Assembly: GCA_014728085.1 (NCBI GenBank)
Contig: WJMF01000039.1
Coordinates: 1 to 64,000 of the forward strand
Source of the DNA: Candidatus Zhuqueibacterota bacterium
GTDB taxonomy: Bacteria; Zhuqueibacterota; Zhuqueibacteria; Residuimicrobiales; Oceaniaggregativiventaceae
DNA length: 64,000 nucleotides
Direction: 5' to 3'
Under the pieces are notes generated by a model. It saw nothing but the letters and a program-made list of their open reading frames with translations, had not been told where the DNA came from and did no database searches. Made by a program: the position numbers and the translations under genes. Below, piece by piece: positions 52,020 through 64,000 of the stretch (position 1 is its first letter; every line of letters begins with the position of its first letter).

Positions 52020-53863
52020 TGAAAAATCAAATATTATCAAAAATAAAGGAAAACCGGGGAATTATACTGGCTTTTACGATCATCGCTTTTTTAGCCGGTT
52101 ATTTGATCAGTGGTTCATCCGTAGAGTATAGCGAAAAAACAGCCGAGAGCGAGGAGGTGGAGGTGTGGACATGTTCCATGCACCCGCAGATCAGGCAACC
52201 GGAACCCGGCCTTTGTCCGATTTGTGGCATGGACCTTATTCCGGTAGAAAAAGAGCAAAGTGACCGCGAGCTTGGCCCGGCGGAGCTTGAACTGTCTTCA
52301 ACGGCGAGAAAACTCGCTGATATACAAACCACGGTGGTTGAGCGCAAATGGATCCCGCATCAAGTTCGGCTCTATGGTAAAGTGGCGGTTGATGAAACCC
52401 GATATAAAACCATTACGGCCTGGGTGGGTGGACGGATTACAGAGTTGTATGTAGATTATACAGGCCTGACCGTTAAAAAAGGCCAACCTTTGTTGCAGCT
52501 CTACAGTCCTGATCTCTATGTTGCACAAAAGGAGTATCTCCAGGCCGTTCAATCCGCGGACAATGCGTATTCGCATCAGGAAACCATGTCTAAAAAACTA
52601 CTTTTTTATGGATTAACCGGGGAGCAAGTGGATTCTCTGGAAAAAAGCGGTCAGGCTGACCCTTATACGATCATCAGCGCACCGATCGGGGGTGTTGTGT
52701 TGAATAAAAAAGCGCTCAGAGGAGAATATGTTCAAACCGGGACCGTTTTATACGAGATCGCCGATCTGAGCCGGGTTTGGGTCTATCTTAATGCTTATGA
52801 AACCGATCTTTCTTTTTTGCAGGAGGGCCAGGGCGTCTCTTTTCAGCTTAAAGCCTTTCCGGGAAAACTGTTTGATGGAAAAATTGATTTTATCGATCCG
52901 GCTTTGGACCCGCAAAGCCGCACCATCAAAGTTCGCGTTATCGCTGCAAACAACGACTTGAAACTCAAACCCGGATTGCTGGTGACGGCAACGGTTTTCA
53001 GTAAAGAGAGACCACAGGAAGAAAAACCCCTGGTCATACCTGCTTCGGCAGCTCTGGTTACCGGAGAGCGGGCTGTGGTCTATGTCGCTGACGGCTCAAA
53101 GCAGGGTGTATTCGCCGGTCGCGAAGTGGTGCTGGGTGAACGCTTAAACGATCATTTTGTTGTCGCCCTCGGATTAACCCCTGGCGAACGCGTGGTAACC
53201 AATGGCGCTTTCAAAATCGACAGTGAAATGCAAATCCGGGCCAAGAAAAGTATGATGAATCCGCAAGGCGATGAGGGGATGGTCACACATACTCATGCCG
53301 AAATGGTATCGACAGAACAACCGCAGCACCGCCATGGAGAAACGCAAACAGAACACGATCAAATGACGGAAAAGCAACGTAAGCAGAAGAAGCCTATGCC
53401 TGAAGACTTTTATAAACAGCTGAAAACGGTCATCAGCCGCTACTATACGGTCCAACAGGCACTCAGTCAGGATGATGGCGAAAAGGGAGCGGAGGCGGCT
53501 GAAAATCTGAAAATCGCTGTTGCTGCAATGGATGCGGATTATGGTCATGGATGGGCTGAGATATACGGCAAATTTGAACGTTTTGCCGAGACTTTGGCTG
53601 TAGCAGAAAACATCAATAAAGAACGCAAGGCCTTTGAACAACTTTCGAATACCTTGATACAAATAGTATCTGCATATGGTATACCTGAAGATATGGTTGT
53701 TGAGCAATACCACTGTCCGATGGCGTTTGACGACAAGGGAGCTGACTGGTTGAGCAATCGCGGCAAGGTGGAAAATCCCTATTATGGTTCACAGATGTTT
53801 CGCTGTGGCAGCAAGGTAAAATCATTTAGCGATACTGAAACAAAGGATTCAGAGCATGAATAA
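52019..53863 (+). CDS. cusB: CusB-type metal-efflux membrane-fusion protein with heavy-metal-binding and DUF3347 domains
   Basis: 614 residues, periplasmic adaptor. N-terminal anchor (13-33). Heavy-metal-binding domain CSMHPQIRQPEPGLCPICGM at about 52-71. HlyD-type hairpin and beta-barrel at about 80-415. A His-rich linker (THTHAEMVSTEQPQHRHG) at about 422-440. C-terminal DUF3347 at about 460-610, ending YHCPMAFDDKGADWLS and NPYYGSQMFRCG, which has Cys/Met/His typical of Cu(I) sites. It links the TolC channel to CusA and probably hands Cu/Ag to the pump. The stop overlaps cusA by eight bases. Confidence 0.92.
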   Translation: MKNQILSKIKENRGIILAFTIIAFLAGYLISGSSVEYSEKTAESEEVEVWTCSMHPQIRQPEPGLCPICGMDLIPVEKEQSDRELGPAELELSSTARKLADIQTTVVERKWIPHQVRLYGKVAVDETRYKTITAWVGGRITELYVDYTGLTVKKGQPLLQLYSPDLYVAQKEYLQAVQSADNAYSHQETMSKKLLFYGLTGEQVDSLEKSGQADPYTIISAPIGGVVLNKKALRGEYVQTGTVLYEIADLSRVWVYLNAYETDLSFLQEGQGVSFQLKAFPGKLFDGKIDFIDPALDPQSRTIKVRVIAANNDLKLKPGLLVTATVFSKERPQEEKPLVIPASAALVTGERAVVYVADGSKQGVFAGREVVLGERLNDHFVVALGLTPGERVVTNGAFKIDSEMQIRAKKSMMNPQGDEGMVTHTHAEMVSTEQPQHRHGETQTEHDQMTEKQRKQKKPMPEDFYKQLKTVISRYYTVQQALSQDDGEKGAEAAENLKIAVAAMDADYGHGWAEIYGKFERFAETLAVAENINKERKAFEQLSNTLIQIVSAYGIPEDMVVEQYHCPMAFDDKGADWLSNRGKVENPYYGSQMFRCGSKVKSFSDTETKDSEHE

Positions 53864-56800
53864 TCCTGAGAACATGACTTTCCTCGACAAGATTATTGCG
53901 TTCTGTTTGAACAATAAAATCGTCATTTTTTTATTGTTATTAATTATTATTGCCTGGGGTGTACTGGTTGCCCCGTTTGACTGGGATATTTTTACTGATT
54001 TGAGAAATCCGGTATCCGTGGATGCCATCCCGGATATCGGCGAAAATCAGCAGATTGTATTTGTAGAATGGCCGGGAAGATCACCGCAGGATGTAGAGGA
54101 TCAAATTTCTTATCCTCTGACAACAGCTCTGCTCGGTTTGCCCGGGGTTAAAAATATTCGTAGTTTTTCGATGATGGGTTTCAGCACCATTTATATCATA
54201 TTCAGAGAAAATATAGAGTTTTACTGGTCCCGTTCCCGGATACTTGAAAAGCTCAACAGTTTGCCCCCCGGAACCCTGCCTGATGGTGTACGGCCCAATT
54301 TAGGCCCGGATGCCACGGCTTTGGGGCAGGTGTTCTGGTATACGCTGGAGGGACGCGATCCTCAGGGTCGTCCGGCGGGAGGATGGGATTTACATGAGCT
54401 GCGGACAATACAGGATTATATCGTTCGTTACGCCCTCATGTCGGCCCAGGGCGTTTCAGAGGTAGCATCCGTAGGTGGGTTCGTTCAGGAGTATCAAATC
54501 GATGTCGATCCGGATGCTCTGCGAAATTACGACATCACCTTACCGCAAGTGATTCAGGCGGTGAAAAACTCCAATCTCGATGTCGGTGCCAGAACTCTGG
54601 AGATCAATAATGTCGAGTATGTGATTCGCGGTATTGGCTTTGTCAAAGAAATAAGCGATCTGGAAAATGCCGTTATCACTTCTGTCGATAATGTGCCCCT
54701 TTTTATCAAAAATGTTGCCCACGTCAGCAGAGGTCCTGCCTTGCGCCGGGGTGCCCTGGACAAAGCAGGGGTTGAGGCGGTTGGCGGCGTTGTGGTGGTG
54801 CGCTATAATGAAAATCCTCTGCAGGCTATACAAAATGTAAAGGAAAAGATTGCAGAAATTGCACCTGGTTTGCCACAAAAGAAATTGGATGATGGCAGCA
54901 TCAGTCAGGTTACCATTGTTCCTTTTTATGACCGTACCGAGTTGATTTATGAGACCCTGAATACGCTCAATTCCGGTTTGTCGCAGCAGATTCTTATTAC
55001 GATTATTGTGGTTCTTTTACTGGTTATGCACTTGCGCAGTTCTATTTTGATCTCTGCGATGTTGCCCTTGGCGGTGCTGATGACTTTTATCGCTATGAAG
55101 CTATTCGGGGTGGATGCCAATATTGTCGCGCTGTCCGGAATCGTCATCGCTGTCGGAACCATTGTTGATATGGGTATTGTGATCACGGAAAATATTTTCA
55201 AACACCTGCAATCAAAGAAGGAAGATACTTCCACATTTAAGGTGGTCTTTACGGCAACCCTTGAGGTCGGTGGTGCGGTGATGACCGCTGTGTTAACCAC
55301 AATTGTAAGTTTTTTGCCGGTATTCACCCTGCAGGCTGCGGAAGGCAAGCTGTTCAGACCACTTGCTTTTACCAAAACCTTTGCCCTCTTTTCGTCTATT
55401 GTACTTGCACTTTTGGTCATTCCGCCTCTGGCGCAACTCTTTTTTACCGGACGTATTCGGGGAAGGCGTTTGCGGCAATGGATATATGGGATCGGACTGC
55501 TATTGGGGATATTGGTTTCGATTTTTTTCGCTTTGGCCGCCGGACTGATTATCGTACTGCTCAGCAGCGCCGGCCTGATTCAATTCATGGTGCCGGCTAT
55601 AAAGACGAATCGCTGGCTGAATATTGCACTGGTTGTTTTGGTTACCCTCATTTTGGCGGCTTATTGGATGCCGCTGGGTATAGGCAAAGGTATCCTGAAC
55701 TTTTTCTTTGTTGCCATCACCATCACATTTTTTCTGGGCTTTTTTCAGGTGATTAAACATTATTATCCCCGTATTCTGCGCTGGGCCCTGGATCACAAGA
55801 GCTATTTCCTGATTTTGCCGGCCACAATTGTTTTAATGGGGGTCCTGACCTGGCTCGGATTTGAGACCCTGTTCGGATGGCTTCCGCGCCCGGTCAAGCG
55901 CTTCGCACCTGTTAGCACAGTGGCACATGCCTTTCCCGGCCTGGGTAAAGAATTTATGCCTTCGCTTGACGAAGGCGCCTTTCTCTATATGCCAACAACG
56001 ATGCCGCATGCCTCTATCGGTGAGGTCATGGATGTGTTGCGCAAGCAGGATATGGCATTGCAGGCTTTACCGGAAATTGAAAGCGCGGTGGGAAAATTGG
56101 GGCGGGTGGAATCGGCTCTGGATCCGGCCCCGGTATCCATGATCGAAACCGTTATCCATTATCGCGATGAATATTATCAGGAGAATAATGAATATGTAAA
56201 ATACAGATTTGACAGCGACAGCGTTGATTATGCCCGTGATTTTGACGGAAATTTGATGCATGCACTTGATCATCAGCCCTATAAAGTAAAAGGGATTTAT
56301 TTGCGCGATGAAAATGGTGGTCTTATTTCCAGCCGCAGCGGCAAGCCATTTCGGTTATGGCGCCGGGCTCTTGATACGGAATATAACCCCGGCCGTATCC
56401 CCTGGACCGGTATTCAGTCTTCGAATGATATTTGGGACGAGATTGTTCGGGTGACCAAAATTCCCGGTACCACCTCTGCACCCAAATTGCAGCCTATCGA
56501 AACGCGCCTGGTTATGCTGCAGAGCGGCATGCGTGCCCCAATGGGCGTTAAGGTAAAAGGCCCTGATCTCGAAATAATTGAAAATGTCGCCCTTGAAATA
56601 GAGACTTTTCTTAAAGAGGTGCCTTCAATACGGTCGGAAACCGTGCAGGCGGATCGTGTTATTGGTAAACCCTATCTGGAAATTCATATTGATCGGGACA
56701 AAATTGCCCGTTATGGCGTATCGGTGAAATCTGTTCAGGATATCATCGAAACCGCTATCGGAGGAAAAACGATCAGCAGGAGCGTAGAGGGTCGTGAGCG

Positions 56801-57713
56801 TTATCCAATCCGGATACGGTATCCACGCGAATTGCGCAACAGTTTAGAGGATCTGCGTAACGTTGTGATCCCGGCCGCCGGTGGCATTCAGCTACCACTG
56901 GGGCAGATGGCCTCCATAGACTATGTGCGGGGTCCTCAAATGATCAAAAGTGAGGATACATTTTTAACCGCCTATGTCATTTTTGATAAAAAAGAAGGCC
57001 ATGCCGAAATCGATGTCGTGGAGCAGGCGAAAACATACCTGAAGCATAAAATGGAAAATCAGGAATTGACGCTGCCGGCGGGCGTCAGTTACAAGTTTGC
57101 CGGTAATTATGAGAATCAGGTCAGAGCCGAAAACCGCCTCATGATTATTATACCTGTTTCGCTCTTTGTCATTTTTCTTATCCTCTATTTTACATTTCGC
57201 TCTGTGATCACCACAACCCTGATCTTTTCCAGTATTGCCGTGGCATGGGGAGGTGGCTTTTTGTTGATATGGTTGTATGGTCAGCCCTGGTTTTTGGATG
57301 TAGCACTGCCCGGCATTGATTTACGGCAACTGTTTCAGGTGCATCCGGTTAATCTCAGCGTTGCTATTTGGGTAGGTTTTCTGGCACTGTTCGGTATTGC
57401 TTCCGATGACGGGGTCATAATCGCCACCTATCTCGACCAGCAATTCGAGCGGCAAAAGCCGGACACGACCAGCAAAATCCGGAAGACCACGGTCGAAGCA
57501 GGACTGCGACGGGTTCGGCCAATGCTGATGACCACGGCCACTACGGTGCTGGCCCTGCTTCCGATTATGACCTCGACCGGAAGAGGGTCCGACATCATGG
57601 TGCCCATGGCCATCCCGGTGTTCGGCGGCATGTTGGTGGCGATCATAACCATGTTTGTTATACCGGTGCTCTATGCCATGCTGAAGGAGCATCAATTACG
57701 GAAAGAACGGTAG
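53856..57713 (+). CDS. cusA: Oversized CusA-type Cu(I)/Ag(I) RND efflux pump
   Basis: 1,285 residues versus about 1,040-1,050 in typical CusA. The proton-relay Asp lies in VGTIVDMGIVITEN near 435. Three Met of the CusA metal path can be placed in LYMPTTMPHAS, APVSMIETVIHY and RLVMLQSGMRAPMG. Two extra stretches explain the length: about 530-690 has additional hydrophobic helices and a loop before the GKEFMPSLDEG landmark, and about 770-850 has an extra segment around LRDENGGLISSRSGKPFRLW. Inner-membrane, proton-driven, exports Cu or Ag through CusB and the TolC channel. No metal-sensing regulator is adjacent, though a two-component pair follows on the opposite strand. Confidence 0.95.
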   Translation: MNNPENMTFLDKIIAFCLNNKIVIFLLLLIIIAWGVLVAPFDWDIFTDLRNPVSVDAIPDIGENQQIVFVEWPGRSPQDVEDQISYPLTTALLGLPGVKNIRSFSMMGFSTIYIIFRENIEFYWSRSRILEKLNSLPPGTLPDGVRPNLGPDATALGQVFWYTLEGRDPQGRPAGGWDLHELRTIQDYIVRYALMSAQGVSEVASVGGFVQEYQIDVDPDALRNYDITLPQVIQAVKNSNLDVGARTLEINNVEYVIRGIGFVKEISDLENAVITSVDNVPLFIKNVAHVSRGPALRRGALDKAGVEAVGGVVVVRYNENPLQAIQNVKEKIAEIAPGLPQKKLDDGSISQVTIVPFYDRTELIYETLNTLNSGLSQQILITIIVVLLLVMHLRSSILISAMLPLAVLMTFIAMKLFGVDANIVALSGIVIAVGTIVDMGIVITENIFKHLQSKKEDTSTFKVVFTATLEVGGAVMTAVLTTIVSFLPVFTLQAAEGKLFRPLAFTKTFALFSSIVLALLVIPPLAQLFFTGRIRGRRLRQWIYGIGLLLGILVSIFFALAAGLIIVLLSSAGLIQFMVPAIKTNRWLNIALVVLVTLILAAYWMPLGIGKGILNFFFVAITITFFLGFFQVIKHYYPRILRWALDHKSYFLILPATIVLMGVLTWLGFETLFGWLPRPVKRFAPVSTVAHAFPGLGKEFMPSLDEGAFLYMPTTMPHASIGEVMDVLRKQDMALQALPEIESAVGKLGRVESALDPAPVSMIETVIHYRDEYYQENNEYVKYRFDSDSVDYARDFDGNLMHALDHQPYKVKGIYLRDENGGLISSRSGKPFRLWRRALDTEYNPGRIPWTGIQSSNDIWDEIVRVTKIPGTTSAPKLQPIETRLVMLQSGMRAPMGVKVKGPDLEIIENVALEIETFLKEVPSIRSETVQADRVIGKPYLEIHIDRDKIARYGVSVKSVQDIIETAIGGKTISRSVEGRERYPIRIRYPRELRNSLEDLRNVVIPAAGGIQLPLGQMASIDYVRGPQMIKSEDTFLTAYVIFDKKEGHAEIDVVEQAKTYLKHKMENQELTLPAGVSYKFAGNYENQVRAENRLMIIIPVSLFVIFLILYFTFRSVITTTLIFSSIAVAWGGGFLLIWLYGQPWFLDVALPGIDLRQLFQVHPVNLSVAIWVGFLALFGIASDDGVIIATYLDQQFERQKPDTTSKIRKTTVEAGLRRVRPMLMTTATTVLALLPIMTSTGRGSDIMVPMAIPVFGGMLVAIITMFVIPVLYAMLKEHQLRKER

Positions 57714-57758: not shown

Positions 57759-59129
57759 TCAAAATGGAATTTTGTTCTGAATAGTATACTTTTTCAACTT
57801 GTATCTCAGATGGCGTTCGCTCATACCGAGCAGGTCGGCTGCTCTGGTCTGGATTCCATTGGCTTTGCGGAGCGCTTCTGATATCAGTTTTTTTTCGAAC
57901 GCTTCGACCCGCTCTTTAAATGAACCGTTCGATAGAGAATAATTATCCGTTTCGCAGGCATTTTGTACACCCAGGGGAAGGTCATTGACCTGGATGATCT
58001 CGTCGCGGCTCAGAACGACCACCTGCTCAATAATATTCTCCAGTTCTCTCACGTTACCGGGATAATCGTATTTCATCAACCGGTCCAATGCTTCACGTGA
58101 AAAGCCGTCTATTTGTTTTTGGTTTTGATCTGCATAGCGCCGGATAAAGTGGTCGGCAAGAACGGGGATATCTTCCCGGCGTTGTCGCAGGGGCGGGAGA
58201 TGTATGTTAACCACATTCAAGCGGTAATAGAGATCCTGGCGAAAGAGACCATTCTTCACCTGTTCTTCCAGAGGGTGGTTGGTCGCGGCCAGGACGCGCA
58301 CATCGATCGAAAAAGGAGTGGAGGAACCGATTCGTTCGATTTGCTGTTCCTGCAGAACGCGCAGGAGCTTTACCTGGGTATGAAGCGGAATATCACCGAC
58401 TTCGTCGATGAAGAGGGTTCCGTGATTTGCCGCTTCAAAGCGTCCTTGTCGTTGCTGTTGGGCGCCGGTAAAGGCTCCTTTTTCATGGCCAAACAATTCA
58501 CTTTCGACAAGATTATCCGACAGAGCGGCCATATTGACGGCCACAAAGGGCTGATCCCGGCGGTTACTGGCATAATGTATAGCCCTTGCCACGAGTTCCT
58601 TGCCGGTACCGCTTTCCCCGGTGATTAATACCGTGGCATGGCTTTCCGCCACCCGTGCAGCAATATTCAAAGCCTGTTCCATTGCCGGACTGGTGCTAAT
58701 GATACCTTCGAAGGAAAGGCGTTCGTTAACGAGTTGCCGTAATCTCTTGTTTTCCGATACAAGCTGTTTGTGTTCCAACGCTCTGGAAAGGGTCAATTCG
58801 AGCTGTTCCAGATCCACCGGTTTGGTTATGTAATCCACAGCGCCGTTTTTCATCGCTGCCGTGGCATCCTCGATACTGCCATAGGCAGTCATCATAATTA
58901 CATCGATATTGGGATTCAATGCTTTGATTTGTTTTAATAATTCCGCCCCGTCCAACTCCGGCATGCGCATATCGGTTAACACCAGGTCTATCGCTTGCTG
59001 CCGAAGAATCTCCAGAGCCTCCAGCCCGTGTTGGGCAGCATGGATGGTATGTCCTCTTTTTTTTAAATATCCGCCCAGCATTTCCCGCTGGGATTTTTCG
59101 TCATCCACGATGAGTATTTTGTTTGACAT
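57759..59129 (-). CDS. NtrC/ZraR-family sigma-54-activating response regulator
   Basis: 456 residues. Receiver (1-120) with phosphoacceptor Asp in LTDMRMPELDG, a AAA+ core with Walker A GESGTGKELVARAIH (near 172), the sigma-54 contact loop GAFTGAQQQRQGRF and Walker B GTLFIDEVGD, then a Fis-type helix-turn-helix (RAADLLGMSERHLRYKLKKY). It activates sigma-54 promoters when phosphorylated by the kinase encoded 2 bases upstream. A -24/-12 promoter and a dyad lie in the divergent region (61255-61402), its most likely target. Confidence 0.96.
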   Translation of the reverse strand: MSNKILIVDDEKSQREMLGGYLKKRGHTIHAAQHGLEALEILRQQAIDLVLTDMRMPELDGAELLKQIKALNPNIDVIMMTAYGSIEDATAAMKNGAVDYITKPVDLEQLELTLSRALEHKQLVSENKRLRQLVNERLSFEGIISTSPAMEQALNIAARVAESHATVLITGESGTGKELVARAIHYASNRRDQPFVAVNMAALSDNLVESELFGHEKGAFTGAQQQRQGRFEAANHGTLFIDEVGDIPLHTQVKLLRVLQEQQIERIGSSTPFSIDVRVLAATNHPLEEQVKNGLFRQDLYYRLNVVNIHLPPLRQRREDIPVLADHFIRRYADQNQKQIDGFSREALDRLMKYDYPGNVRELENIIEQVVVLSRDEIIQVNDLPLGVQNACETDNYSLSNGSFKERVEAFEKKLISEALRKANGIQTRAADLLGMSERHLRYKLKKYTIQNKIPF

Positions 59130-59131
59130 GT

Positions 59132-61186
59132 TTACTCCGTTACGGGTAGATAAATTGTAAATACTGTACCTTCTTCGGGCTTGCTCTGCACATCGATTGT
59201 GCCATGATGTTGGGAAATGATCTGCTGTACGATGCTCAGACCGATTCCCGTACCCGTTTCCCGGGTGGTATAGTAGAGATTGAATATTTTGTCAAGCTCT
59301 TCCTCTTTAATGCCTTTGCCGTTATCTGTTATTTTGATCTCGAGACGATTATCCTCTTCTCTACACGAAAAATGAACCCGATCTCCCCGGGAACAAGCTT
59401 GTAGTGCATTTTGGCCGATATTGAGAAATACCTGTCCAAGCCGGTCTGCATCCGCTTCAATGTCGACCCGGGAAGGGCAATCGCTTGTGATTCGGATTCC
59501 CTTTTCAGCTGAAGATTGCTGTAAAAGCGTCATCACATTTTGCAAGACAGATTTGATATCGATTTTTGTTTTATTCAACTTGCCGGGTTTTGCAAATCGC
59601 AGGAATTGTTGAATGATATCGTTAATCCTGCGCGTTTCATTGACTATAGTGGATGCCATTGCGTTATATTCATCCTCTTGCGGTTTGAATTCGGTTTTAA
59701 AACGCTGCGCAATCATCCCGATGGCGTTCAGGGGATTGCGAATCTCATGTGCCACGCCGGAGGCCAGATGCCCCATGGCGGATATCTGGTTTTGACGCTT
59801 TAAATTCTCTTCCAGCTTTTTTTGTTCTGTAATATCTTTAACCACGGCGAAAACCGAGTCCAGCTCGCCACCTGGTGACATGACCAGCCCGATATAGAGC
59901 GATACGATGTATTCCTGACCGCTGAGAAATATTTTTTCTTCCTCATAGCGATGCGATCGCTTTGCAAGAAGCGCTTTTCGCAGATAAGGACAGAGAGCTT
60001 TGAGTTCGGTTTCACATGGTTTTCCCAATAGCTTTGCTGCCCGTACCTGAAAAAGCTGCTCTGCAAACGAGTTGACCAGAGTAAGATTGCCATTGCGATT
60101 GATGGCAACGACAGCATCCGACATGTTTTCGAGGATATTACCGGCATAGCTTTCGATACGTTGATAGGCTTTTTGCAACTCGCGATAATTTTGATGGCTG
60201 ATCACCCAGTTGGCCACGATGGCCCCAAATATGAGTAAAAGTAAAGAGGATATCACAATCCGGGTGATGCTGTTGCGCTGTGTCTCCTCGATGTGTTGTG
60301 TTCCCAGGCCGAGGCGGAGGATTTCCTTTTGGTCATAGGAAAAGGGATGGATGATTTCCAAAACCTTTTCGTCCTCATAGTCGACAAACCTTGTATATAA
60401 TTCCCCGGATTGCAGTGGGTCGTTGCTGCTTTTAAAGGGCAAGGTCAGAAAGGAATCTGCCGACATGGTGCTCATGGAATCCACACCCTCGGTAGCGATT
60501 AAAATATTGGCTGTATCCTGAAGGACGATATACTCGATGCCTGGATTTTTACCGATGTTCTGGATAAGCTTGCCCAGCCCGACGGTTTTGCGAAAATCGA
60601 GCATCTGTTGCGCATCGATATTCAGGACGATAACGCCGCCGAGACGGCGTCGCTTGGCAACAGCAAACCGCTGCCCCGGCCCAAAACGACTGCTGTGCAA
60701 TCCCATAATCAATTCATCATTACCCTCGATCCGAATAGCGTGCATGAGCTCGGGAGATGCCTGAGGTTGACTGTTGTGGAGATGCGCATGAGAACTTTTA
60801 ATGCGTTTGCCTTTTTCATTGTATATGTTGATTCGAAAAATACGATTCTGTTCCGATAAAGCATAAAGCTTTTCATCCGATAAAGCACCCAGATAATCCA
60901 GTTCTTCGATAAGACGGGCATTATTGAGCAATCGTTCGGCAACCAATTCTTCTGTAAGGGCATAAGAGACCAGGCTATTCCTTGACCCTTCTTCCAATGC
61001 CGTGATCAACGCTTTGGATTCTTCCTGCAAAATATGGACAAGCTCTCTTCTTGCGCTGATAATGTCTACGACAGCGGACACCAGCAAGATGCCTGCCAGC
61101 ACCAGGGTTACGGGCACCAGGACTTTGATACTTACCTGAAAAGGTCGCCGGGGCAGGTTTGATTTTTGTTGAAATGGAGATTGCAT
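59132..61186 (-). CDS. ZraS/AtoS-like membrane sensor histidine kinase
   Basis: 684 residues. TM1 at about 24-44, an extracytoplasmic sensor domain at about 45-310, TM2 at about 311-330, PAS at about 350-460 (ENMSDAVVAINRNGNLTLVN), HisKA with phosphoacceptor His in SGVAHEIRNPLNAIG (near 475), and HATPase (N box VFLNIGQNALQA, G1 DNGKGIK, G2 GTGIGLSIV). The external sensor looks like a dCache/sensory domain whose ligand is unknown. The cognate regulator follows after 2 bases. The gene is divergent from the Ca-binding-repeat gene at 61442. Confidence 0.93.
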   Translation of the reverse strand: MQSPFQQKSNLPRRPFQVSIKVLVPVTLVLAGILLVSAVVDIISARRELVHILQEESKALITALEEGSRNSLVSYALTEELVAERLLNNARLIEELDYLGALSDEKLYALSEQNRIFRINIYNEKGKRIKSSHAHLHNSQPQASPELMHAIRIEGNDELIMGLHSSRFGPGQRFAVAKRRRLGGVIVLNIDAQQMLDFRKTVGLGKLIQNIGKNPGIEYIVLQDTANILIATEGVDSMSTMSADSFLTLPFKSSNDPLQSGELYTRFVDYEDEKVLEIIHPFSYDQKEILRLGLGTQHIEETQRNSITRIVISSLLLLIFGAIVANWVISHQNYRELQKAYQRIESYAGNILENMSDAVVAINRNGNLTLVNSFAEQLFQVRAAKLLGKPCETELKALCPYLRKALLAKRSHRYEEEKIFLSGQEYIVSLYIGLVMSPGGELDSVFAVVKDITEQKKLEENLKRQNQISAMGHLASGVAHEIRNPLNAIGMIAQRFKTEFKPQEDEYNAMASTIVNETRRINDIIQQFLRFAKPGKLNKTKIDIKSVLQNVMTLLQQSSAEKGIRITSDCPSRVDIEADADRLGQVFLNIGQNALQACSRGDRVHFSCREEDNRLEIKITDNGKGIKEEELDKIFNLYYTTRETGTGIGLSIVQQIISQHHGTIDVQSKPEEGTVFTIYLPVTE

Positions 61187-61254: not shown

Positions 61255-61289
61255 CGACCATTTCGTCGAAAAGTTCGACTTTATGGTCG
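61255..61289. promoter_or_regulatory. 35-bp dyad, probable enhancer-binding (UAS) site for the adjacent NtrC-type regulator
   Basis: CGACCAT (61255-61261) pairs with ATGGTCG (61283-61289), and inside it GTCGAA (61265-61270) pairs with TTCGAC (61274-61279). Both arms share the same axis at 61272. It is 122 bp upstream of the -24/-12 elements, a normal distance for an activator of sigma-54 polymerase. It also lies 69 bases before the divergent kinase gene and could control it. Confidence 0.65.
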
Positions 61290-61386
61290 TTTTTTTTTGT
61301 TTGGGTTTTTCTCTTTTTTCGCTTTTTTGTTATTTTTTATTGAAAACATTAAAGTTATATTTATTTCATGTTCCGATGCCGAGTTT

Positions 61387-61402
61387 TGGCATACTGCTTG
61401 CA
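61387..61402 (+). promoter_or_regulatory. Sigma-54 (-24/-12) promoter
   Basis: TGGCATACTGCTTGCA: the -24 GG and -12 GC are 10 bases apart, and TGGCA and TTGCA match the consensus closely. It would start RNA near 61413, 29 bases before the ATG at 61442. Confidence 0.8.
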
Positions 61403-61441
61403 AATAAAATACCAGAATTAGTGCAATATAGGAGAAAATCG

Positions 61442-62146
61442 ATGAATCGTTTTTTACAAATAATCCTCATCAATGCGATGTTGATGATTTTTGCCTCAAC
61501 CCGGGTTGTCGCTCAAACGGAGAGCAATGAAAACAAAGCGGTGGAAAATAAAAAAGTACCGGCCTACAACCCCAAGGCTCCGGATCATGACGGCGATGGC
61601 ATTCCCAATGGTCAGGATCCGGACTATCAGCGAAAAGCCGGTCAATCCTCTGTGGATAAGAACGACGCCGGGCAGCAGCCGTTTTCCGGAGAGGGAGAAG
61701 GTGATACCGGCGAGACAGATCCGGATACCGGATCGGAAGTTGATCTTCAGAGTCCAAACAAAGAGCAATTGCAAAATCGACACAGCCAGCCCAACGGTTT
61801 TGTCGACGAGAACGGCGACGGTCTGAACGATAATGCTCCGGATGCCGACGGTGACGGTATTCCCAATGGCCAGGATGAAGACTATGAGCCTCCTCGTGAT
61901 GGCAGGGGATGGGGAAGAGGTCACGGCATGCACGGTTTTATCGATGAGGATGGCGATGGATTTAACGACAATGTTCCCGCTTTCTTTGAGCCTGACGGAA
62001 AAAAAGGGGGGTGGCAGCGGCCGGAGGAGTGTTTTGGCCGGGGAGCTCGAGCTGGTCAGGAGTTCGGTCGGGAACCGGGAAAGGCCGGTCCCGGCGGTCC
62101 GGCCGGCAAAGGCAAAGGTCCCGAAGGCGGTAAAGGTGGCGAATAA
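61442..62146 (+). CDS. Secreted acidic protein with calcium-binding (thrombospondin-3/EF-hand-like) repeats
   Basis: 234 residues. Signal peptide (MNRFLQIILINAMLMIFAS to AQ at about 25). At least four repeats of the D-x-D/N-x-D-G type: DHDGDGIPNGQDPDY, DENGDGLNDNAPDADGDGIP and DEDGDGFNDNVPAFFEP. The C-terminal tail is glycine/proline/lysine-rich (GPGGPAGKGKGPEGGKGG). AGGAGA stands before the ATG; an upstream frame to 61283 is rejected because it would run through the promoter. Being under the sigma-54 promoter and next to a barrel and a cytochrome suggests a role at the cell surface, perhaps matrix or docking. Confidence 0.8.
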   Translation: MNRFLQIILINAMLMIFASTRVVAQTESNENKAVENKKVPAYNPKAPDHDGDGIPNGQDPDYQRKAGQSSVDKNDAGQQPFSGEGEGDTGETDPDTGSEVDLQSPNKEQLQNRHSQPNGFVDENGDGLNDNAPDADGDGIPNGQDEDYEPPRDGRGWGRGHGMHGFIDEDGDGFNDNVPAFFEPDGKKGGWQRPEECFGRGARAGQEFGREPGKAGPGGPAGKGKGPEGGKGGE

Positions 62147-62195
62147 ACAATTGTTCTCTCGGATGATTAAATCCACATAAACCAGGGTGACAGAT

Positions 62196-63332
62196 ATGAA
62201 AGTATCCTTTTTTCTTTTTTCAATGCTTCTGATCCTCCTCGCAGTTCCCGCTCAGGCTCAGTTCGGCGTTTCGTTTCAAACCTATGGTGGCTATGCCAGC
62301 AATGTATTTGCCAATTATCGTCAATTACCCGATTATTACAATGCTCTTACTGCCAGCGTTTATCATGACTGGATCGATTCCAGTTCCGGTTTGCGCCTGT
62401 CCTATCAGGGTGATTTAACCCTGTTTGATGAGTATAATTATCGAAATTTTCATACGCATGAGCTTGGCATAAAAGTGTACACGTATACAAGTTCAACGGG
62501 TAACAGACTGAATGCCGGTGTTGACATCGCAAAACGGCTTTATAACGGGGATTATCGCTGGTATGAATACAATCAGGCGTATGTTTATAGCAATATTAAG
62601 GTCATTCTATCACATCAACTCTATGGTTATGCCGGCGGCGATTTTCGGGTGCGCAAGTACAGCCTTTTGGTTCCCTTTTCTTACTGGCAGAATACATGGT
62701 TTTTGCGCCTGAGCCGGTTTTTTAACAGTGGTACGTCGGTGATTCTTGAGGGAAACTATTTTCTTAAAACCTATCTCAATAACAACACAGTCAGCCCCTT
62801 GCCGGAGTTTCCCGAACTCTATACCTCCGGTACTGGTAACAACAGACAAATCGCTGCCAGCCTGCGGTTGGCACAATCCATTGATTCCAGGACGGGCATT
62901 AATGCGGAGATTGTTGTCAGACGTACCTTGAATAACTCTGTTCGCTATCTCGGTACCGGAGATGGACTCTATTATTCTGATGATGATATTTTTGATGATC
63001 CATACAGCTATGACTCTGAGCAGCTGAATATAAGCTTGAAACGCAAGTTCGGTTGGAACATCCGGATGTCAACGGGCCTTGTCTTTATGGATAAACACTA
63101 TACCGGGCGTTTGGCGCTGGATTTAGACGGATATGCTTTTGCAGATTCGAGAATGCGGCATGACAAACAATCCCTGATATGGATCTCTTTTGACAAGTCT
63201 TTTCGCTATTTGCGTGCTTTACAACCCATCACCCTGGCGGTCGATCTCGCCTGGATGCAGAATTTTTCCAATGATCCCTATTACGATTATAAAAAGAGCT
63301 ATTTTTCCGTCGGACTGGCCCAAAGTTTTTAA
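62196..63332 (+). CDS. Outer-membrane beta-barrel, porin-like candidate beside a multiheme cytochrome
   Basis: 378 residues. Signal peptide MKVSFFLFSMLLILLAVPAQA. Many amphipathic strands rich in Tyr/Arg/Asn follow (for example FQTYGGYASNVFANYR, HELGIKVYTYTSSTG and ending KKSYFSVGLAQSF). AGGGTGA stands before the ATG at 62196; a GTG at 62187 is less likely. It is 49 bases after the Ca-binding-repeat gene and 107 before the cytochrome. A conduit for electrons or substrates is plausible; there is no proof from sequence alone. Confidence 0.65.
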   Translation: MKVSFFLFSMLLILLAVPAQAQFGVSFQTYGGYASNVFANYRQLPDYYNALTASVYHDWIDSSSGLRLSYQGDLTLFDEYNYRNFHTHELGIKVYTYTSSTGNRLNAGVDIAKRLYNGDYRWYEYNQAYVYSNIKVILSHQLYGYAGGDFRVRKYSLLVPFSYWQNTWFLRLSRFFNSGTSVILEGNYFLKTYLNNNTVSPLPEFPELYTSGTGNNRQIAASLRLAQSIDSRTGINAEIVVRRTLNNSVRYLGTGDGLYYSDDDIFDDPYSYDSEQLNISLKRKFGWNIRMSTGLVFMDKHYTGRLALDLDGYAFADSRMRHDKQSLIWISFDKSFRYLRALQPITLAVDLAWMQNFSNDPYYDYKKSYFSVGLAQSF

Positions 63333-63439
63333 AGGAATACTTTTTCAGGAAATTTTGATTCTCACTTGTATATTCGCTCCTAAATGAATATCTTTTATCA
63401 AGAGTTGTCAATTGATATTTGCATCACCTGGAGGTGAAT

Positions 63440-64000
63440 ATGCACATGTATCGTCTTGTCTTGATGATCCTGATCAGCGCCTGTTTAATCTCTGCAGCAG
63501 AAAACAATTCCGCCGGGCGCTGTATGGTTTGCCACAAGGAAAAAACAAGGGGACTCTACAATCAGTGGTTTAACTCCTCTCATGCCATGCACAATGTTAC
63601 CTGTATAGATTGCCATCGGGCGAAAAAGAATGAAAAGGATTCATTTTTACATTACGATGCTTACATTGCCACTCTGGTTACCCCAAAGGATTGCGGCACC
63701 TGTCATCCTGCAGAAATGAAACAAGTGTCTGGTTCACATCATGCCAGGGCCGGGCAGATTTTGGAAAGCAATGATGCGTATCTCGCTCACGTCGCTGCCG
63801 GTCATCCGGTTGCAATTCAGGGATGTGAAAGTTGTCATGGCGCCAATGTCGTTATCGACAGCAAAGCTGAGAACAAGCTGGCCAAAACCACCTGGCCCAA
63901 TTCCGGTATCGGTCGTATGAATCCGGATGGTTCGCTGGGCTCCTGCAATGCCTGTCATACCCGCCATGCGTTTTCCCGGGCCCAGGCCCGTCAACCGGAA
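63440..64000 (+). CDS. HAO-like multiheme c-type cytochrome (C terminus outside window)
   Basis: At least 187 residues are visible. The N terminus MHMYRLVLMILISAC is a signal peptide and fits a lipobox (ISAC), so it may be a lipoprotein. Five CxxCH heme sites appear: CMVCH, CIDCH, CGTCH, CESCH and CNACH. The segment SCNACHTRHAFSRAQARQPE is characteristic of the hydroxylamine oxidoreductase-like octaheme family, so three or more further hemes are expected beyond the edge. It acts in the periplasm or on the surface in nitrogen-oxide or electron transfer. GGAGG sits five bases before the ATG at 63440. Confidence 0.9.
   Translation, partial: MHMYRLVLMILISACLISAAENNSAGRCMVCHKEKTRGLYNQWFNSSHAMHNVTCIDCHRAKKNEKDSFLHYDAYIATLVTPKDCGTCHPAEMKQVSGSHHARAGQILESNDAYLAHVAAGHPVAIQGCESCHGANVVIDSKAENKLAKTTWPNSGIGRMNPDGSLGSCNACHTRHAFSRAQARQPE

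Follow-up and report, generated by a model that had tools for sequence, protein, structure and literature searches.

Does the right-hand end of this stretch of DNA encode one signal-controlled device for carrying electrons across the outer membrane, or do separate groups of genes meet there? The window, that is, the whole stretch of 64,000 nucleotides analysed, corresponds to positions 1-64000 of the 89712 in contig C114, which belongs to a draft genome of 5.19 Mb; the contig was also read to the right of the window, beyond position 64000. A regulator gene and a kinase gene occupy the minus strand, and genes for a secreted repeat protein, an outer-membrane barrel and a multiheme cytochrome diverge from them on the plus strand. 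The original prediction treated the three diverging genes as one module, either a porin-cytochrome conduit or a nitrogen-oxide-handling complex. We conclude, with a probability of about 0.78, that two independent units abut here: a surface module comprising kinase, regulator, enhancer, promoter, repeat protein and barrel (unit 1), and an HAO-like cytochrome with its ImcH-type partner (unit 2).

Scope of the comparison

The class was sampled with 63 genomes. Neighbours within 6 kb were counted at 36 barrel loci; open reading frames were picked simply and the assemblies are drafts, so that an absent neighbour in these tallies may reflect a contig end. Enhancer and promoter sites were sought at the 30 barrel loci whose upstream sequence extends to 2 kb or more, with 150 shuffled and 30 reversed sequences as controls. 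A tandem enhancer (UAS) was called when at least 14 of 16 positions matched, and a sigma-54 box was looked for 90-150 bp downstream of it. Homologues were aligned for the barrel family (alignment A1) and for the repeat protein (A2). An Rfam scan of the extended locus gave no match.

Two flanking groups of genes were seen. On the left, an RND pump of the AcrB/CzcA type (window 53856-57713) is convergent with the regulator gene, their 3' ends lying 46 bp apart. To the right of unit 2 are two GntR regulators, a CBM9 protein, an SDR and a TRAP-like transporter (L002:6501-14461, equivalent to C114 66501-74461), which look unrelated and resemble a separate uptake cluster.

Kinase, regulator, enhancer and promoter

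The regulator (57759-59129, minus strand) is an NtrC/AtoC/ZraR-type response regulator with receiver, sigma-54 AAA+ and Fis HTH domains (Pfam Sigma54_activat, E 4.7e-73; Response_reg, E 6.9e-33); its best NCBIfam match is AtoC, at 539 bits, which is under the cut-off. The adjoining sensor histidine kinase (59132-61186, minus strand) has a periplasmic double-Cache-like sensor together with PAS, HisKA and HATPase domains. A model of the sensor domain (pLDDT 88.6) matched mostly Cache-type ligand-binding domains in the PDB, at modest TM scores of about 0.3-0.45.

Between the divergent genes lie two regulatory elements. One, absent from the original prediction and added here, is an enhancer at 61255-61289 consisting of tandem CGAC-N6-GTCG palindromes with centres 21 bp apart, a putative site for the regulator; it has a single exact (0-mismatch) copy in its own genome. 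The other is the sigma-54 promoter that had been predicted, TTGGCATACTGCTTGCAA (61386-61403, plus strand), recognised by pattern match. Its core, TGGCAY-N5-TTGCW, occurs at one site in the window (61387-61402), against 0.19 expected by chance, and the box starts about 130 bp past the start of the palindrome pair. The repeat gene is preceded by a sigma-54 box in nearly all relatives, and the palindromes recur as well: a tandem enhancer was found at 22 of the 30 loci, and every one of these 22 has a sigma-54 box 90-150 bp downstream. The combination appeared in none of the 150 shuffles and none of the 30 reversed sequences.

The repeat protein and the barrel

The gene next to the promoter (61442-62146, plus strand) encodes an acidic protein of 234 aa with a signal peptide and DxDGDGxPNG repeats of Ca-binding-like type, and so bears out the secreted repeat protein that was originally described. 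The outer-membrane barrel that follows (62196-63332, plus strand) was likewise confirmed. Its start is more likely ATG 62196 than GTG 62187, and its AF2 model (pLDDT 91) has 16 strands, which begin at residue 24, straight after the signal peptide, leaving no N-terminal domain. The statement that neither protein has a named family holds for the repeat protein, which matches nothing in Pfam or NCBIfam, but needs amending for the barrel, whose C-terminal 122 residues alone give a weak match to PF04575 (SlipAM; E 1.8e-5, 24.9 bits against a cut-off of 22).

Might the barrel then be a relative of the type 11 secretion (Slam/DUF560) proteins that lacks their TPR region and exports the Ca-repeat protein? 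Matches to PF04575 turn up in 12 of 33 members of the barrel family (best E 1.7e-7), and the barrel gene is almost always beside one gene for a secreted protein. Type 11 secretion proteins carry an N-terminal TPR domain ahead of the barrel, whereas our protein starts directly with its strands, and the PF04575 match in the window protein is confined to C-terminal strands. The cargo differs in type as well: T11SS cargo typically carries a C-terminal barrel domain (PMC12282271), and none was recognised in the repeat protein. A fold search returned generic porins and AlgE at TM about 0.5, with no MtrB among the 50 matches listed, and a profile of the barrel found no credible match among PDB sequences. 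We consider export of this kind unlikely.

Conservation of unit 1

The barrel family is present in 40 of the 63 class genomes, and its named relatives are labelled mostly candidate division KSB1. An orthologue of the repeat protein adjoins the barrel at 33 of the 36 loci tallied; the regulator lies within 6 kb at 27 and the kinase at 21, in a sample that includes truncated contigs. In Ignavibacteria and Bacteroidetes assemblies the regulator and barrel are retained, as mostly are the repeat gene and kinase; enhancer and sigma-54 box are clear at both Bacteroidetes loci, and the enhancer is unclear at the Ignavibacteria locus. Gene order is not fixed, since the genes of unit 1 may be divergent, convergent or on the same strand. 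In many relatives the gene past the barrel points in the opposite direction, which places the end of the operon at the barrel. A paralogous second set, consisting of a tailed protein of about 500 aa, a repeat protein and a barrel, with kinase and regulator in most cases, was also seen (L103, L108, L112, L117, L181).

The closest known arrangement is ZraPSR of Escherichia coli, in which a kinase-regulator pair is divergent from the gene of an exported metal-binding protein across a shared spacer and has essentially one target (PMC8249747). Unit 1 in our genome shares with it this divergent layout, a kinase, an NtrC-family regulator, essentially a single target and a sigma-54 promoter at an adjacent gene for an exported protein. 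It differs in that this protein is an unrelated one with Ca-type repeats and no Pfam or NCBIfam match that would link it to ZraP, in having an outer-membrane barrel in addition, and in the variable gene order among relatives. More generally, control over the cell exterior has been widely connected with sigma-54 (PMC3162934). A word-based search of a limited literature collection retrieved nothing relevant to the module, and to that extent unit 1 is an undescribed, strongly conserved two-component-controlled surface module, without a named family save for the weak SlipAM match. We infer that it functions at the cell surface.

The octaheme cytochrome and its ImcH-type partner

The cytochrome gene starts at ATG 63440 on the plus strand, and its first 187 codons lie in the window (63440-64000). 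Reading on to the right, as the original prediction had proposed, showed that it ends at contig position 64756, giving a protein of 438 aa with eight CXXCH motifs, and that a second gene follows at 64860-66341. The HAO-like multiheme cytochrome of the original prediction is therefore real, and octaheme. The idea that it might be a lipoprotein fared less well: a lipobox-like ISAC is present in our protein, but no lipobox is kept at the equivalent place in relatives, and we rejected lipidation as a family trait. Against the PDB the best structure is 4qo5, the octaheme protein of Ignicoccus hospitalis (E 5e-41, or 6.7e-78 by profile, with homology across most of the length), and the match to NeHAO has E 4.5e-20. 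A cross-linking tyrosine marks oxidative HAO; the C-terminal part of our cytochrome gave no usable alignment to NeHAO, and catalysis may run in either direction. Our protein is shorter than the HAO-family proteins it resembles and is paired with an ImcH-type quinol dehydrogenase; its reaction is a predicted one. The in-vivo role of the Ignicoccus protein, the closest HAO-family structure, is unknown (PMC4429474).

The second gene, outside the window, encodes a NapC/NrfH-superfamily membrane multiheme protein of 493 aa. Its hydropathy peaks fall in windows starting at about residues 16, 52 and 106, CGTACH is at residue 137, and there are five CX2CH motifs. The traits published for ImcH are three N-terminal membrane stretches, an adjacent CX3CH, five to nine CX2CH and a length of about 495-519 aa (PMC6295460). 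The product, at about 490 aa, agrees with them in its three hydrophobic stretches near the N-terminus, its membrane-adjacent CX3CH and its five CX2CH, and on these published traits it can be classed as ImcH-type. It differs from the ImcH of Geobacter and others in that its gene adjoins that of an HAO-like enzyme.

What does the pair do? Five genomes (G017, G006, G010, G007 and G002) have cytochrome homologues with 62-67% identity, and in all five a NapC/ImcH-type gene comes directly after. The pair in G002 has a divergent prismane/Hcp gene as its neighbour. Behind the pair come YgbA_NO, DUF438, PAS/hemerythrin and DUF1858 genes in G017, and, close by, DUF438-hemerythrin-PAS and DUF1858/DUF2249 genes in G006. 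Genes of this nitrosative-stress type stand beside the pair at L037:6062-8113 and L038:4827-6571. Regulons that respond to nitrogen oxides have Hcp as a core component and often include hemerythrin-like genes (PMC1274295). Because the pair stands beside nitrosative-stress genes in three relatives, reduction of nitrite, NO or hydroxylamine is its likely job, and from family and neighbourhood unit 2 is probably a quinol-fed nitrogen-oxide reductase. Nitrogen-oxide handling can thus be retained for the cytochrome alone, but not for a complex of the three genes first grouped together. The neighbours of more distant cytochrome homologues are Rieske, cytochrome b and other multihaem genes. FNR-like sites were seen upstream of one of eight HAO genes (that of G006), too few to be of use.

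One module or two

In its own genome the cytochrome gene follows the barrel gene on the same strand after a gap of 107 bp, in which a simple scan found neither a terminator nor a promoter-like site, and adjacent barrel and multiheme cytochrome genes recall the MtrCAB/Pcc conduits. This is the setting for a conduit reading in which the barrel would hold the octaheme cytochrome with the repeat protein outside. The original prediction would have dropped the conduit if the three-gene set proved not to be conserved, and the set, with an HAO-like gene within 6 kb of the barrel, occurs at only one of the 36 barrel loci, that of the genome in which it was noticed. None of the five relatives with the HAO-ImcH pair has a barrel within about 10 kb of it or a repeat gene nearby. 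Four of them (G017, G010, G007 and G002) do have the barrel elsewhere: in G017 it is 1.29 Mb distant on the contig that carries the pair, and in the others it is on a separate contig. The partner that the cytochrome does keep is the ImcH-type gene, and in no other genome examined is it near the barrel. Conduit barrels are large and MtrB-like, with over 20 strands; the one here is small, its fold matches ordinary porins, and there is no outer-surface cytochrome at the locus. Since the set is not conserved and the barrel is too small, we rejected the conduit, which seems to us very improbable.

Is the cytochrome nevertheless expressed from the sigma-54 promoter? Because the same-strand gap is short and without a recognisable terminator or promoter-like site, read-through into the HAO-ImcH genes is possible in this genome. 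Placement of the cytochrome under that promoter was not confirmed, given the gap and an arrangement that is not conserved, and enhancer or sigma-54 control of HAO itself was rejected, as no enhancer with sigma-54 box was found upstream of the HAO gene here or in the five relatives. Signal control, as originally claimed, applies to the repeat protein and barrel, for which kinase, regulator, enhancer and promoter are conserved.

Other genes behind the same enhancer

In some relatives the same enhancer is found upstream of other exported proteins, usually together with a sigma-54 box. Cytochromes of about 645 aa with five hemes, an MtrC/MtrF-like domain and a FlgD/Por_Secre_tail-type C-terminus occur in 15 of the 63 class genomes (for instance at L178:1167-3203 in G008, L102:5999-7936, L107:9064-10995 and L088:1353-3320). 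DUF2202 proteins with a secretion-tail domain lie behind tandem palindromes in G033 (L172:989-2245), where there is a sigma-54 box, and in G021 (L179:1388-2362), where none was seen. In G052 the enhancer precedes a tailed protein of about 500 aa, ahead of the barrel paralogue. Two genomes from a single genus encode proteins of about 1600 aa with DUF2334/GHL6 behind the same tandem palindromes (L174:4109-8998 in G009; L175:4708-9501 in G013).

These observations raise the question of whether the regulator runs a wider surface redox regulon, into which the HAO-ImcH pair was recruited behind the barrel here, to be expressed from the sigma-54 promoter. The pentaheme gene of G008 carries a tandem enhancer and a sigma-54 box of its own, the same family adjoins or sits within the barrel module in G013, G009, G019 and G054, and a DUF4405 membrane protein comes after the barrel in G021 and G035 (in the latter judged from the sequence start only). 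Yet only one of the 15 pentaheme genes is so equipped, which leaves a redox theme among the enhancer-linked genes possible rather than established; other linked genes, such as that for the 1600-aa protein, are not obviously redox; the HAO genes here and in the five relatives lack the enhancer; and at the barrel module of many relatives redox genes are missing altogether. We regard recruitment of this kind as quite unlikely. A broader version, about equally doubtful, has the dCache-kinase/sigma-54 system governing a lineage-specific surface redox regulon, with the Ca-repeat protein and barrel as its core and electron-transfer genes added lineage by lineage (HAO-ImcH here; in a relative, a surface pentaheme cytochrome under an enhancer of its own). 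If it were true, a soluble signal would start respiration at, or close to, the outer surface.

Proposed functions and significance

With two independent units as the preferred reading, comparison of genes and sites suggests the following scheme. A periplasmic signal would be sensed by the dCache-type histidine kinase, which would phosphorylate the NtrC-type regulator; this would bind the tandem CGAC-N6-GTCG palindromes and activate sigma-54 RNA polymerase. Transcription would then yield a two-gene operon for the secreted acidic Ca-repeat protein and the 16-strand barrel, which by analogy with ZraP/ZraSR in envelope stress would most likely modify or protect the cell surface. Separately, to judge from family and pairing, the ImcH-type membrane cytochrome would pass electrons from quinol to its HAO-like octaheme partner in the periplasm, whose most likely reaction is the reduction of nitrite, NO or hydroxylamine.

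A false conduit candidate is thereby removed and replaced by two testable units. The strict conservation of one regulated operon across this class of uncultured bacteria, and as far as Ignavibacteria and Bacteroidetes assemblies, argues for an important surface function, and the enhancer motif can be used to read out the regulon genome by genome. With nitrosative-stress genes as its neighbours, the HAO-ImcH pair suggests quinol-linked nitrogen-oxide reduction outside the NrfAH system.
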